The notes under the pieces: model-generated
The model's input: the letters and a program-made list of their open reading frames with translations, nothing else
What the model was told of the DNA's origin: nothing
Database searches by the model: none
Assembly (NCBI RefSeq): GCF_001652725.1
Contig: NZ_LWHJ01000031.1
Coordinates: 62,001 to 126,000, forward strand
Direction of reading: 5' to 3'
DNA length: 64,000 nucleotides
Origin: Pedobacter psychrophilus
GTDB lineage: Bacteria; Bacteroidota; Bacteroidia; Sphingobacteriales; Sphingobacteriaceae
In this document: positions 45,371 through 51,298 of the stretch, in pieces
Numbering within the stretch: position 1 is the stretch's first letter
How the letters are laid out: each line of letters opens with the position of its first letter
Program-made: the position numbers and the translations under genes

Positions 45371-46428
45371 ATCCCATAAAAAATGATAACTATCAAGTGT
45401 TTTTTGATGATAGTTTAAATATTTTAAATAATATACTGGCTCAAAAAAAATATTCCAAAATCTTTATTTTAGTTGATGAACAGACAAGTGAACATTGCTT
45501 ACCTGTACTTCAGGAAAAGTTACCACAATTAACCGAATTTGACATTATTGAAGTGCCTAATGGCGAGGAAAATAAAACAATAGATTTTTGTATTGGCATT
45601 TGGCGAACACTGTTAGATTTTGAAGCGGATAGAAATGCATTGTTAATCAATTTAGGCGGAGGTGTGGTTACGGATATGGGAAGTTTTGCTGCAGCAACTT
45701 ATAAACGTGGTATAGACTTTTTACAAATTCCTACAACCCTACTTTCACAAGTTGATGCTTCTGTGGGTGGTAAAACAGGAATTGATATGGATAATGTAAA
45801 AAATATCATTGGCACTTTTTCTCAACCACAAGCTGTTATCATTTGTACTGATTTTTTAAAGACCTTACCAGAAAGAGAATTAACCTCTGGTTTAGCGGAA
45901 GTATTAAAGCATGGGATTATTGCCGACGTTGATTTCTTTGATGAATTGACTTTATTAAATGATGCTAAAGAAATTACTGTAAAACATATTCATAAATCAG
46001 TAAGCATAAAAAACAAAGTTGTCTTAGCCGACCCTTTTGAAAAAAATATCCGTAAAACTTTAAATTACGGGCATACCATTGGTCATGCTATAGAATCCTG
46101 GTCTTTAGTTAATGAGAAAAATTCACTTTTACATGGTGAAGCTATTGCTATTGGAATGATCTGCGAGGCATATTTAGCTAAAGAAACAAACGAACTTTCT
46201 GAAGAAGAACTTGAGAAAATTACCAATACATTTATTAAATTTTTTGGTAGATATAAAATCAGACCAGGTATCGAAAATGCGCTACTAGATATAATGAAGC
46301 AAGACAAAAAGAATTCTAATGGTAAAATAAGTTTCTCTTTACCCACAAAAATAGGAAATTGTAGCATTGATTCATTTATTGAAGAAAGCCTTATTTTAGA
46401 TAGTTTAAAGTATTATCAGTCTATCTAA
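45367..46428 (+). CDS. aroB: 3-dehydroquinate synthase
   Basis: Second step of the shikimate pathway (DAHP to dehydroquinate; NAD and metal dependent). It has 353 residues. NLGGGVVTDMGSFAAATYKRG and LLSQVDASVGGKTGID are the NAD/phosphate motifs; ELTSGLAEVLKHGII and NYGHTIGHAIES contain the metal ligands (Glu, His). It opens the aromatic gene cluster, and is coupled to the S4 gene by a 4-bp overlap; the pheA attenuator lies between it and pheA. Confidence 0.97.
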   Translation: MNPIKNDNYQVFFDDSLNILNNILAQKKYSKIFILVDEQTSEHCLPVLQEKLPQLTEFDIIEVPNGEENKTIDFCIGIWRTLLDFEADRNALLINLGGGVVTDMGSFAAATYKRGIDFLQIPTTLLSQVDASVGGKTGIDMDNVKNIIGTFSQPQAVIICTDFLKTLPERELTSGLAEVLKHGIIADVDFFDELTLLNDAKEITVKHIHKSVSIKNKVVLADPFEKNIRKTLNYGHTIGHAIESWSLVNEKNSLLHGEAIAIGMICEAYLAKETNELSEEELEKITNTFIKFFGRYKIRPGIENALLDIMKQDKKNSNGKISFSLPTKIGNCSIDSFIEESLILDSLKYYQSI

Positions 46429-46524
46429 TTATCTCTTTTTTCTGATGTAAGATGAAAGTTTAAATTAAAAAATTGACCATATTAAATTCTGTGAAATTAT
46501 TTTAAAAAAAATTTAATTCTTATT

Positions 46525-46554
46525 TTGTGATTTCAGATTATTGTGTAGATTTGA
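46525..46554 (+). promoter_or_regulatory. Promoter of the pheA leader
   Basis: -33 TTTG (46525-46528), 18 bases, -7 TAGATTTG (46547-46554). The predicted start near 46558 places the leader-peptide ATG about 13 nt downstream. The position and the TAnnTTTG box fit the Bacteroidota consensus. Confidence 0.65.
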
Positions 46555-46570
46555 CACATCAAATAAAAAA

Positions 46571-46633
46571 ATGACAAAAATCGCTACATATTACTATGCT
46601 TACTTTTATTTTAGAGATAAAAGCCGGGCATAA
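46571..46633 (+). CDS. Tyr/Phe-rich leader peptide of the pheA attenuator
   Basis: A 20-codon frame: M T K I A T Y Y Y A Y F Y F R D K S R A then TAA. Seven of eight codons in the block 7-14 are Tyr (five) or Phe (two). This composition is characteristic of attenuation leaders that sense charging of the corresponding tRNA. The last codons (AGC CGG GCA) form the 5' arm of the antiterminator, so ribosome position would determine which hairpin forms. It is too short for standard gene calling. The call is based on sequence pattern, not on expression. Confidence 0.82.
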   Translation: MTKIATYYYAYFYFRDKSRA

Positions 46634-46665
46634 TATGTTATAAAATATAAAACATAAAACCCGGC
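46623..46665 (+). promoter_or_regulatory. Antiterminator of the pheA attenuator
   Basis: GCCGGG (46623-46628) pairs with CCCGGC (46660-46665), supported by an inner stem TATGTT/AACATA (46634-46639 with 46651-46656). The 3' arm is shared with the terminator, so the two structures exclude each other. The arm starts 11 nt after the last Phe codon. Confidence 0.75.
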
Positions 46666-46686
46666 CAAACAGCCGGGTTTTTTTTT
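46656..46686 (+). terminator. Attenuator terminator before pheA
   Basis: Perfect 10-bp stem AAAACCCGGC (46656-46665)/GCCGGGTTTT (46672-46681) with a six-base loop and T-run 46678-46686. It ends 9 bp before the pheA ATG, so it can only act by stopping transcription of the operon. Confidence 0.92.
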
Positions 46687-46695
46687 AACCAAAAA

Positions 46696-47526
46696 ATGAG
46701 CACAATAAAAAGAGTTGCAATTCAAGGAATCAAAGCTTCATTTCATGAAGAAGCTGCTTTCAAATTCTTTGGAGAAGATATTGAGACGATAGAATGTACT
46801 TCTTTTAAACAAACTTTTCAAAAATTGGCAAATGGAGAAGCTGATTGTGTAGTGATGGCTATTGAAAATAGCATAGCCGGAAGTTTATTGCCAAACTACT
46901 CATTATTAAGAGAATATAACTTTCCGGTAATTGGCGAAGTTTACTTACATATCCAACTGCATTTAATGGCTTTGCCAGGAGTAGTATTTGAAGATATTAA
47001 AACGGTAACCTCCCATCCTATCGCCATCCGTCAATGCGGAGATTTTTTGGATGATTTTCCTAATTTAAAAATAATTGAAAGTAGTGATACTGCGGCTTGT
47101 GCTAAAAAAATTAAAGAAGAACAATTAACTGATACAGTTGCAATTGCAAACACTCTTGCTGCTAAACTTTATGGATTAAATATTTTAGAACGTAGAATAG
47201 AATCTAACAAAAAAAATTATACTCGTTTCTTGATTTTGACTGATAAACAAAGTGAAATCAAAAATGCAAACAAAGCTTCCTTATGCTTTCAGGTAAGTAA
47301 TGATGTAGGTTCTTTAGCAAATGTGTTAAACATATTAGCCGAAAACGATATCAATATGAGCAAAATACAATCTATGCCAGTTTTAGGAAAACGTAATGAG
47401 TATAATTTCTATGTAGATGTAGAATGGAATAATTCAGACAGTTATGATGATGCAATACGTAGAATTTTAAAACATACCGTAAACTTTAGCATTATGGGGG
47501 AATATGTAAAGAACGATTCGGTTTAA
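46696..47526 (+). CDS. pheA: Prephenate dehydratase
   Basis: Makes phenylpyruvate from prephenate, the committed step to phenylalanine. It has 276 residues: the dehydratase domain occupies 1-180, with GIKASFHEEAAFKFF, the ENSIAGSL substrate motif and the catalytic Thr-Arg-Phe in NYTRFLIL, followed by an ACT domain (about 190-270, VGSLANVLNILAENDINMSKIQSMP) for feedback by phenylalanine. It is monofunctional, with no chorismate mutase domain, which is instead fused to the next enzyme. Expression is probably attenuated by the leader upstream. Confidence 0.96.
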   Translation: MSTIKRVAIQGIKASFHEEAAFKFFGEDIETIECTSFKQTFQKLANGEADCVVMAIENSIAGSLLPNYSLLREYNFPVIGEVYLHIQLHLMALPGVVFEDIKTVTSHPIAIRQCGDFLDDFPNLKIIESSDTAACAKKIKEEQLTDTVAIANTLAAKLYGLNILERRIESNKKNYTRFLILTDKQSEIKNANKASLCFQVSNDVGSLANVLNILAENDINMSKIQSMPVLGKRNEYNFYVDVEWNNSDSYDDAIRRILKHTVNFSIMGEYVKNDSV

Positions 47527-47627: not shown

Positions 47628-48734
47628 ATGAAACTTAACCTAAACATACAACCATTAAGCAGCTGGATGAACGTAACTCATCAGCCGTTGGTAATCTCTG
47701 GCCCATGCAGTGCCGAAACAGAAGAACAATTATTAGCAACCGCTCGTTTATTAAAAGCTACTGGAAAAGTTAGCGTTTTAAGAGCAGGTATTTGGAAACC
47801 AAGAACTCGTCCCGGAGAATTTGAAGGGATTGGAAGCATTGGTTTAGAATGGCTTAATAAAGCTAAAGCAGAGACTGGTTTACCAATTGCAGTAGAAGTT
47901 GCAAATGCAAAACATGTTAAAGAAGCTTTGGCTGCTGGTGTAGATATCCTTTGGATTGGTGCAAGATCAACTGTAAATCCTTTTACAGTACAAGAAATTG
48001 CAGATGCATTAGAAGGTCATGATGTACCAGTAATGGTTAAAAATCCAATAAATCCTGATCTTTCTTTATGGATTGGCGCTTTAGAGCGTATCAACCGAGC
48101 TGGAATCACAAAATTGGCGGCAATTCATAGAGGTTTTTCTTCATTCGAGAAAACTGCTTTTCGTAATCAACCCATGTGGGATTTGGCAATCAGTTTAAAA
48201 ACATTGTTACCACAATTGCCAATTTTGAACGATCCTTCTCACATTTGCGGATCTAGAGAATTGATTCCTTTCATTGCACAAAAAGCTCTAGATTTAGATA
48301 TGCAAGGTTTAATGATTGAAGCTCATATTGATCCTTCAGTTGCTTGGACAGATGCTGCTCAGCAAGTTACTCCAGCTGCATTAAGTGAAATGATTGATGG
48401 TTTTGTTTTAAGAAAAGCAGAATCTAAAAATCCTGATTTTGTAGATAAATTAGCTGTGATGAGAGAAAAAATTGACCAAATTGATGATCAAATTTTTCAA
48501 AAATTAGGAGAAAGAATGAAAATTGTAGAGCAAATAGGTGAATATAAAAGAGATAATGATGTGACCATTCTCCAGGTTTCTAGATGGGATGAAATCCTGC
48601 AAAAAAGAACAGCTTATGGTTCTGTTTTAAAACTTGAAAAAGATTTTACTGAGAAAGTTTTAGAATTGATACATAGCGAATCTATCCGTAAGCAAACGGC
48701 AATCATGAATGCAACAAAAGCCGAGCTAGGATAA
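47628..48734 (+). CDS. Bifunctional DAHP synthase/chorismate mutase
   Basis: A 368-residue fusion. Residues 1-265 are a class I-beta DAHP synthase: GPCSAETEEQL, WKPRTRPGEFEGIG, MVKNPINPD, AIHRGFSS and NDPSHICG. Residues 275-365 are an AroQ-type chorismate mutase (VDKLAVMREKIDQIDDQIFQKLGERMKIVEQIGEYKR). So one protein supplies both the entry to the shikimate pathway and the branch to prephenate. Its stop overlaps the aroA start by one base. It follows pheA by about 100 bp and is probably part of the attenuated transcript. Confidence 0.95.
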   Translation: MKLNLNIQPLSSWMNVTHQPLVISGPCSAETEEQLLATARLLKATGKVSVLRAGIWKPRTRPGEFEGIGSIGLEWLNKAKAETGLPIAVEVANAKHVKEALAAGVDILWIGARSTVNPFTVQEIADALEGHDVPVMVKNPINPDLSLWIGALERINRAGITKLAAIHRGFSSFEKTAFRNQPMWDLAISLKTLLPQLPILNDPSHICGSRELIPFIAQKALDLDMQGLMIEAHIDPSVAWTDAAQQVTPAALSEMIDGFVLRKAESKNPDFVDKLAVMREKIDQIDDQIFQKLGERMKIVEQIGEYKRDNDVTILQVSRWDEILQKRTAYGSVLKLEKDFTEKVLELIHSESIRKQTAIMNATKAELG

Positions 48735-49972
48735 TGAATCCATCAGTTATTATAAAAAAGTCTCAAATTTCTGCTGAAGAAACCATTAATTTAACAGGCT
48801 CAAAAAGTGAAAGTAATAGAGCGCTTATCATATCGGCGTTAAGCAAAGGGAAAGTGATTATTAAAAACCTTTCTTCAGCAGCTGATACCGTTACCTTAAA
48901 TGGGATTTTAAATCATGAAAATGAGCATCCAAAAGTTGTAAATGTTGGGCCAACTGGTACGGCAATGCGTTTTTTGACTGCTTATTTTTCTTTAAAAGGA
49001 GAAAAAATTGAAATTACAGGTTCAGATAGGATGAAACAACGTCCTATTGGAACTTTGGTTGATGCCTTGCGAACTTTGGGAGCGGATATTTCTTATCAAG
49101 AAGAAGATGGTTTCCCACCTGTTTTAATTAATGGTGCGTTTGATCAAAAAACAGCTCATATCTTAATTCGTGGTGACATTAGCTCTCAATTTTTGACTGC
49201 TTTATTGCTCGTAGCTAGTTCTTTACCTCAAGGTGTAGATTTGGAAATTATGGACGAATTAACCTCCAAGCCTTATGTGGAAATGACTTTATCAATGCTG
49301 AAACAATGCGGCATCAACCATACCTGGGAGAAAGATAATATCGCCATTTTACCTCAACAATTTCAACCGACAACCTTAACTATTGAGCCAGATTGGAGTG
49401 CTGCTTCTTACTGGTACAGCGTTGTTGCACTTTCAGAGAATGCGAAAGTTCATCTTCCAAATCTCAAAAAGAATAGTTTACAAGGCGATAGTGAAATTGC
49501 AGAAATCATGTCTTTATTTGGAGTTGAGACTATTTATCATGAAAATGGAGTTACTATTGAAAAAGTTGGAAATGAAATTAAGCCACAACTTTTAGATTTT
49601 AAAGAATGTCCTGATTTAGCACAAACAGTTATTGTTTGCTCTGCACTTTTATGTAAAGAATTTAGTTTTTCTGGCCTGGAAACTTTAAAGATTAAAGAAA
49701 CCAATAGGATTTTTGCTTTACAAACGGAATTAGCCAAAATTGGAGCGAAACTGATAGAAACTCAAGCAGATGTTTATCAATTAGATTGTGAATTAGTAAA
49801 CATTCCGTCACAAATAACTGTTGCCACATATGAAGATCACAGAATGGCAATGGCTTTTGCACCAATGGCAATGATGATTGATAAAGTAACTATTGAAGAA
49901 GCAAAAGTAGTAGAAAAATCATATCCTCATTTTTGGGAAGATTTTAAAAAGATAGGTTTTGATGTAAAGTAA
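48734..49972 (+). CDS. aroA: 3-phosphoshikimate 1-carboxyvinyltransferase (EPSP synthase)
   Basis: Sixth step of the shikimate pathway. It has 412 residues. LTGSKSESNRALIISAL and NVGPTGTAMRFLTAYF at the N terminus match the PEP/S3P-binding signatures, with GDISSQFLTALLL and the C-terminal TYEDHRMAMAF. The motif GPTGTAMRF is GxAGTA.R in many family members. It is the last gene of the block pheA-DAHPS/CM-aroA, 1 bp overlapping the gene before. Confidence 0.96.
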   Translation: MNPSVIIKKSQISAEETINLTGSKSESNRALIISALSKGKVIIKNLSSAADTVTLNGILNHENEHPKVVNVGPTGTAMRFLTAYFSLKGEKIEITGSDRMKQRPIGTLVDALRTLGADISYQEEDGFPPVLINGAFDQKTAHILIRGDISSQFLTALLLVASSLPQGVDLEIMDELTSKPYVEMTLSMLKQCGINHTWEKDNIAILPQQFQPTTLTIEPDWSAASYWYSVVALSENAKVHLPNLKKNSLQGDSEIAEIMSLFGVETIYHENGVTIEKVGNEIKPQLLDFKECPDLAQTVIVCSALLCKEFSFSGLETLKIKETNRIFALQTELAKIGAKLIETQADVYQLDCELVNIPSQITVATYEDHRMAMAFAPMAMMIDKVTIEEAKVVEKSYPHFWEDFKKIGFDVK

Positions 49973-50209: not shown

Positions 50210-51298
50210 ATGGCAGGTAATTCCTTCGGGCAAATATTTAAAATAACCACTTTTGGTGAATCTCATGGCGAAGCCATTGGAGTTATTATTGACGGCTGTC
50301 CTTCTAACATAGAAATTGATTTAGATTTTATCCAGAACGAATTGGATAAACGAAAACCTGGTCAATCTAAAATAACCACACAACGCAAAGAATCTGATAC
50401 TTTCCAGATTTTGTCAGGTATTTTTGAAGGTAAAACTACAGGAACTCCAATTGCCATCATCATTCCAAACGAAGATCAAAAATCAAAAGATTATGATCAT
50501 AACAAAGATACTTTTCGCCCCTCTCATGCCGATTATACCTATCAGGTAAAATATGGGATTAGAGACCATCGTGGTGGCGGACGATCATCTGCCAGAGAAA
50601 CCGCAGCGAGAGTTGCCGCTGGTGCAATTGCTAAATTATTTTTAAAACAAAAAGGAATTGATGTTTTAGCACATGTGAGTAGTGTTGGAAATTTAGATTC
50701 ACCAGAAATTGATTTTACTTCTGCGGAGGAATTTGTAACCCTAAGAGAAAATAATATTGTTAGATGTGCAGATGCAAAAACTGCGGAGCAAATGATTGAA
50801 TTAATTGATGGTATTAGAAAAGAAGGCGATACCATTGGTGGTAAAATTACTTGTTACATTAAAAATTGCCCTGTTGGTTTAGGAGAACCCGTTTTTGATA
50901 AGCTTCATGCCGATTTAGGCAAAGCCATGTTAAGTATTAATGCGGTTCATGGTTTTGATTATGGATCTGGTTTTGATGGCTCCACGATGCGAGGATCACA
51001 ACATAACGATGCTTTTCAATCAAGCGAAAGCGGAAAAATATCTACTAAAACCAATTTCTCTGGCGGTGTTCAAGGTGGGATTTCTAACGGAATGGATATT
51101 AATATGCGTATTGCTTTTAAACCAGTTGCCACTATCATGAGCAACCAGAATACTGTAAACAAATCTGGTGAAGCCGCAGAGATTAAAGGAAAAGGTCGTC
51201 ATGATCCTTGTGTGGTTCCAAGAGCGGTAGCTATTGTTGAGGCAATGGCTGCTTTAGTTATAGTTGATCATTATTTAAGAAATCAGCTGTATAAATAA
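50210..51298 (+). CDS. aroC: Chorismate synthase
   Basis: FMN-dependent last step of the shikimate pathway. It has 362 residues. [40 protein letters not shown] and [22 protein letters not shown] are standard. It is separated from aroA by 237 bp containing a repeat copy, so it may have its own promoter. Confidence 0.97.

Follow-up and report, generated by a model that had tools for sequence, protein, structure and literature searches.

The question raised by this locus of Pedobacter psychrophilus is whether a short reading frame crowded with tyrosine and phenylalanine codons, followed by a hairpin and a T tract just ahead of pheA, adjusts transcription of aromatic amino acid genes to the supply of their end products. 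The original prediction had interpreted the arrangement, from the letters of the window (the whole 64-kb stretch of DNA that was analysed), as ribosome-mediated attenuation. Comparative and folding analyses of sequence data support this interpretation, and a classic ribosome-mediated transcription attenuator is very probably the best explanation for the pheA leader. The predicted promoter, leader frame, both hairpins and T tract all lie at the positions originally named, and Pfam matches bear out the identities given to the downstream genes. The elements and genes considered here are the following:

46524..46553, + strand: predicted Bacteroidota-type promoter (TTTG at 46524-46527, an 18-nt spacer and TAGATTTG, of the form TAnnTTTG, at 46546-46553)
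46571..46633, + strand: leader peptide frame MTKIATYYYAYFYFRDKSRA (ATG at 46571, stop codon TAA at 46631-46633, 20 codons)
46589..46612, + strand: aromatic codon block Y Y Y A Y F Y F, the proposed sensor (sequence, leader alignment)
46586..46639, + strand: predicted 1:2 protector or pause hairpin (ACATAT...TATGC with GCATAATATGT ending at 46639)
46623..46628, + strand: strand 2, GCCGGG, the 5' antiterminator arm within the last leader codons (sequence, paired changes, permutation)
46660..46665, + strand: strand 3, CCCGGC, common to antiterminator and terminator (sequence, paired changes)
46672..46677, + strand: strand 4, GCCGGG (sequence)
46656..46686, + strand: intrinsic terminator (3:4), AAAACCCGGC/CAAACA/GCCGGGTTTT and T tract (fold of -16.2 kcal/mol, covariation)
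46696..47526, + strand: pheA, prephenate dehydratase, first regulated gene (PF00800, 2.3e-57; weak ACT match)
47628..48734, + strand: bifunctional DAHP synthase-chorismate mutase gene (PF00793, PF01817 (CM_2))
48734..49972, + strand: aroA, EPSP synthase (Pfam; gene order kept in relatives)

The leader has the composition first described for it, with seven Tyr or Phe among eight consecutive codons: codons 7-14 read TAT TAC TAT GCT TAC TTT TAT TTT (five Tyr, two Phe). The terminator arms occupy 46656-46665 and 46672-46681, and the T run comprises nine T (46678-46686). On the 5' side of the element lies aroB, encoding 3-dehydroquinate synthase and ending at 46428, with the TAnnTTTG promoter-like motif located between aroB and the leader; a chorismate synthase gene is found further downstream, at 50210 (both genes by Pfam).

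Conservation of the element was assessed by scanning GTDB genomes with PheA, which yielded 80 related loci (protein identity 74-93%), nearly all from Pedobacter, Mucilaginibacter, Daejeonella and other Sphingobacteriaceae, and these were combined with the P. psychrophilus locus into a set of 81. Absence of leader and hairpins from close relatives had been named as the observation that would speak against the original prediction; an aromatic leader is present in all 81 loci, 125-240 nt upstream of pheA, and a terminator, found by search or visible in the sequence, stands between leader and pheA. The strict terminator search, based on uninterrupted stems, missed 12 Mucilaginibacter and Pedobacter loci with terminators visible by eye, as well as some loci from other families, and the loci missed in this way were left out of the strand 2/strand 4 permutation, the ribosome-footprint folding and the spacer shuffling described below. 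A covariance model of the element built from 48 family loci finds a match in 198 of the 201 genomes that were sampled across the order, every one of the 201 being labelled Sphingobacteriaceae; the position before pheA was checked for part of the matches. Within the P. psychrophilus genome, the pheA locus is the sole strong match (110.8 bits); the three next, weak matches were inspected as candidate further copies and rejected as ordinary terminators. Since the upstream gene differs in most family loci, being a same-strand aroB in only 27 of the 81, the element belongs to pheA. In 50/81 loci the 80 nt preceding the leader contain the Bacteroidota -7 element TAnnTTTG, versus 10/405 control segments; the -33 element is weakly conserved, a suitably spaced TTTG being found in only 13/81 loci.

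Beyond the family, the sequence ahead of pheA was searched in 62 genomes from other families for short frames in which six or more of ten residues are aromatic. Such a leader was found in 53/62 genomes overall and, within the class, for 49 of 53 sampled pheA genes spread over six other families; by comparison, 3.5% of shuffled upstream sequences and none of 62 antisense strands gave a match. Losses within the class are limited to a single family, in which three loci have the leader and four do not. Two genomes of a single genus, both lacking the aromatic leader, have a common short frame about 145 nt upstream of pheA (MKITGWPWPLCHF in L113, MITGWPWHLCRF in L128).

Folding of the 131-nt leader-terminator region at the P. 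psychrophilus locus is 5.3 standard deviations more stable than that of shuffled sequences, and the predicted energies of its helices are balanced (-14.3 kcal/mol for the 1:2 region, -14.1 for 2:3 and -16.2 for 3:4). Paired changes occur in both of the hairpins that the original prediction had held to be exclusive through a shared strand. In the alignment of 48 family sequences, the terminator shows 27 cells changed on both sides, with 96.1% of cells paired, and its covariation exceeds that of all 500 shuffles (0/500) and of all slid versions; the antiterminator shows nine cells changed on both sides, with 93.6% paired (0/500 shuffles). The outer helix of the 1:2 hairpin is 91.7% paired in these 48 relatives, with no covariation beyond shuffles found, and the hairpin is accordingly presented as a prediction. 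Evidence linking strand 2 to the terminator was also obtained by permutation: among the 44 distinct terminators of the wider set of loci, the stretch following the aromatic block fits the strand 4 of its own locus better than that of other loci (a mean of 5.6 versus 4.8 bases; p<5e-5, with none of 20,000 permutations as high). In some Flavobacteriaceae-like loci, where the exact match between strands 2 and 4 spans only 3-4 nt, the switch would have to rely on wobble pairs or shorter helices.

The position of the ribosome relative to these strands was modelled with an assumed footprint that has a 15-nt leading edge, measured from where the P-site codon begins. At the P. psychrophilus locus, strand 2 stays wholly free whichever of the eight block codons the ribosome stalls on; with the ribosome at AGA (46613) the strand is half covered, and from GAU (46616) through the stop codon it is fully covered, in agreement, in silico, with the original proposal that a finished leader covers strand 2 and a stall at the Tyr/Phe block frees it. 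Across 118 distinct loci, a stall at the first or middle aromatic codon gives a median capture of strand 3 of 0.93-0.98 in the family and 0.75-0.77 in other families, and a ribosome at the stop codon gives an antiterminator capture of about 0.02-0.04. The assumed footprint size has little effect on capture, except at the last codon. Shuffling the spacer reduces mean capture from 0.88 to 0.40, the real sequence exceeding the shuffled one in 118/118 loci. Footprint folding thus reproduces the predicted switch in nearly all of the 118 distinct leaders. With no ribosome, the transcript up to strand 3 of the P. psychrophilus locus folds as the antiterminator (P ~0.95), so that default termination would depend on timing.

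The locus thereby combines a short predicted leader frame rich in end-product codons, an intrinsic terminator between that leader and the first gene, hairpins made mutually exclusive by a common strand 3 (as judged from comparison and folding) and a spacing by which, in silico, a stall frees strand 2 and arrival at the stop codon covers it, all of them features that define an attenuator. In the mechanism that we propose, transcription would start a short distance before 46571, and the first ribosome on the transcript would translate the leader. A shortage of charged Tyr-tRNA or Phe-tRNA (and perhaps, in many relatives, of charged Trp-tRNA) would stall this ribosome in the aromatic block, allowing GCCGGG of strand 2 to pair with CCCGGC of strand 3 before strand 4 is made; the 2:3 pairing would preclude the terminator, and the polymerase would continue into pheA, the DAHP synthase-chorismate mutase gene and aroA. 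With charged aromatic tRNAs available, the ribosome would reach the stop codon and cover strand 2, strands 3 and 4 would pair and transcription would terminate at the T tract. Should the leader not be translated, strand 2 may be sequestered in the 1:2 hairpin, with termination favoured as a result.

The sequence evidence provides good support for sensing of aromatic supply, and the codon content of the leaders bears on which amino acids are sensed. Tyr outnumbers Phe in 67 of 76 Sphingobacteriaceae leaders and Phe outnumbers Tyr in 37 of 46 leaders from other families, with Trp codons present in 23/76 and 21/46 leaders, respectively. Among 32 aligned 20-codon leaders, Tyr, Phe and Trp interchange at conserved aromatic positions, where synonymous changes also occur; position 8 is Trp in 16 leaders and Tyr in 16, and nearly all of the 32 have Tyr at positions 7, 11 and 13, with both Tyr codons used at position 13. 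RNA pairing may account for some of the Tyr content, because the first Tyr codon (the TAT in CATAT) is part of strand 1 in the conserved 1:2 helix. The suggestion that tyrosine tunes the operon no less than phenylalanine does is therefore not established, given that the codons vary by lineage, that many leaders include Trp, that Tyr may have a role in pairing and that the Phe-Tyr-Phe leader of Corynebacterium is unresponsive to Tyr (PMC11802643); tyrosine sensing is nonetheless plausible.

A narrower form of the attenuation model, which is a sub-case of our preferred explanation and not exclusive of it, holds that phenylalanine only is sensed and that the Tyr codons are neutral or structural. 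We consider it possible but rather unlikely. The response of the C. glutamicum AroR leader to Phe and not to Tyr, the location of the first Tyr codon in the 1:2 helix and the excess of Phe over Tyr outside the Sphingobacteriaceae are all consistent with it, but the Tyr excess within the family and the near-constant Tyr at positions 7, 11 and 13 are not readily accommodated, and the DAHP synthase and chorismate mutase of the operon are needed for Tyr synthesis too. We also considered whether the Tyr bias reflects the presence of tyrA in the operon. This gene is absent from the operon in Sphingobacteriaceae, including the P. psychrophilus locus, and in other families a gene of aminotransferase size and one of tyrA size, identified by size and order only, often lie between pheA and the DAHP synthase gene. 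Tyr-rich leaders thus occur without tyrA and Phe-rich leaders often with a tyrA-size gene, albeit in few clades, so Tyr content does not simply follow tyrA and this explanation was rejected.

Returning to attenuation in its general form, the same leader could in principle act through arrest by the nascent peptide or another specific peptide effect, in the manner of TnaC, with no part for uncharged aromatic tRNA. The leader is well conserved within genera and contains some near-invariant non-aromatic residues (e.g. KSR), as such a peptide might. Arrest peptides, however, usually require exact residues, and here Tyr, Phe and Trp exchange while order, length and flanks vary across families; the invariant SR stretch, moreover, is accounted for by strand 2 (AGC CGG G). 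We regard this alternative as very improbable. An even smaller probability attaches to the notion that the hairpin simply terminates upstream aroB, or terminates constitutively, and that the aromatic frame arose by accident in AT-rich sequence: although Tyr/Phe-rich short frames are not extremely rare in such DNA (0.125 expected per 64 kb, and 3.5% of shuffles under a looser definition), the frame and its composition are conserved in 81/81 loci, a promoter-like TAnnTTTG separates aroB from the leader, the upstream gene is a different one in most relatives and strand 2 covaries with the terminator, so that conservation at the sequence level already refutes it. Taken alone, the frame is only mildly unusual against chance, the 7-of-8 pattern being unique among short ATG frames in the window and the expectation of 0.125 having been obtained with first-order Markov sequence; the observation as a whole is far beyond chance, and it is conservation in the aligned sequences that confirms the attenuator-like element as real.

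Other loci of the P. psychrophilus genome touch on the same pathways. The region ahead of trpE (L153, contig C28 near 13.3 kb) has a leader frame for tryptophan, MNKTTNTNKWWWHNKNVASVALFVF, and then a terminator (GACCCGACG/CGTCGGGTT) and a T run; it would constitute a second attenuator-like leader in this genome, without an Rfam match at gathering score. Upstream of hisG (L152, contig C27 near 172.5 kb) lies a histidine leader frame, MKIKLITLHHLHHHHYGVAI, with 66 nt between its end and the gene; the strict search detected no intrinsic terminator in this interval, and control may occur by another mode of termination or at translation. We withdrew an initial reading of the genome as lacking tyrA, since a divergent TyrA-like gene is present elsewhere. 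The product of this sole TyrA candidate, a 417-aa protein (L151 1360-2613, contig C22 near 324 kb), falls narrowly short of the Pfam cut-off for PDH_N and is matched by prephenate dehydrogenase models of NCBIfam and, weakly, by a PDB prephenate dehydrogenase 1; it resembles yeast TYR1. No leader was seen upstream of it. Many family genomes have only similar weak TyrA matches, in frames of 420-450 aa, and others have an ordinary TyrA. A 593-aa aromatic amino acid hydroxylase (PF00351; L158 610-2391, contig C31 near 10 kb) is a possible second route from Phe to Tyr, and PF00351 was matched in 59/101 family genomes.

Several known systems resemble the element described here. In E. coli pheL-pheA, an antiterminator and a terminator are likewise exclusive, and Phe is the sole aromatic residue of PheL. 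That system (RF01859) similarly places an end-product-rich leader peptide, controlled by charged Phe-tRNA, before the prephenate dehydratase gene (PMC11802643), but the Pedobacter leader contains Tyr as well as Phe, leaders elsewhere contain Trp too, and the operon also includes DAHP synthase and aroA. The Rfam Phe_leader model (RF01859) scores 29.8 bits at the P. psychrophilus locus, below its gathering score of 55, and such sub-gathering matches were set aside as generic terminator matches. The C. glutamicum aroR-aroF attenuator shares with the Pedobacter leader a mixed Phe/Tyr composition upstream of a DAHP synthase gene, with a response reported to Phe only (PMC11802643), but belongs to another phylum and has three aromatic residues versus seven to nine. 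The Bacteroid-trp motif (RF01692) is listed as a cis-regulatory RNA of Bacteroidetes, by its name at trp genes (PMC2864571), and has no gathering-score match at our pheA locus, at the loci of relatives or at the trpE leader; indeed, no Rfam family was matched at gathering score across eight loci (the P. psychrophilus pheA locus and seven others).

Our search for papers joining Pedobacter, leader peptides and attenuation, which did not extend to subscription literature, returned none, and papers on the Bacteroides RNA map or his genes contain no pheA leader. Bacteroidetes cases may be listed in the comparative attenuator survey of Lopatovskaya et al. (2010). Before Firmicutes were added in a 2010 study, leader peptides were known only in Proteobacteria and Actinobacteria (PMC2965389). 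The original prediction knew of no described case in this group, which holds in part: a 2021 report (PMC9723704) found strong hints that amino acid operons of F. psychrophilum are attenuated through leader peptides and noted a conserved structured 5' element, unmatched in Rfam, at the pheA genes of Flavobacteriaceae. That element is probably the same as the Pedobacter one, yet the main text of that work gives no leader sequence, codon content, antiterminator or occurrence beyond Flavobacteriaceae. What is known is the attenuation mechanism; what is new is its documented phylum-wide occurrence with mixed aromatic codons.

The element thus represents a leader-peptide attenuator conserved across families, documented by covariation and geometry, in a phylum with little previous work on such control, and its mixed, lineage-dependent Tyr, Phe and Trp content offers a testable case of one leader weighing several end products. 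Tentatively, and with slightly less than even confidence, we suggest that a single leader integrates the charging of Tyr, Phe and, where the codon is present, Trp tRNAs to control the entry enzyme of the aromatic pathway, and that this is an old device of the Bacteroidota. If one leader does integrate two or three aromatic tRNAs, polymerase and leading ribosome would be closely coupled in Bacteroidota; because the first ribosome must keep up with the polymerase, conservation of the attenuator would itself constitute indirect evidence for such coupling.
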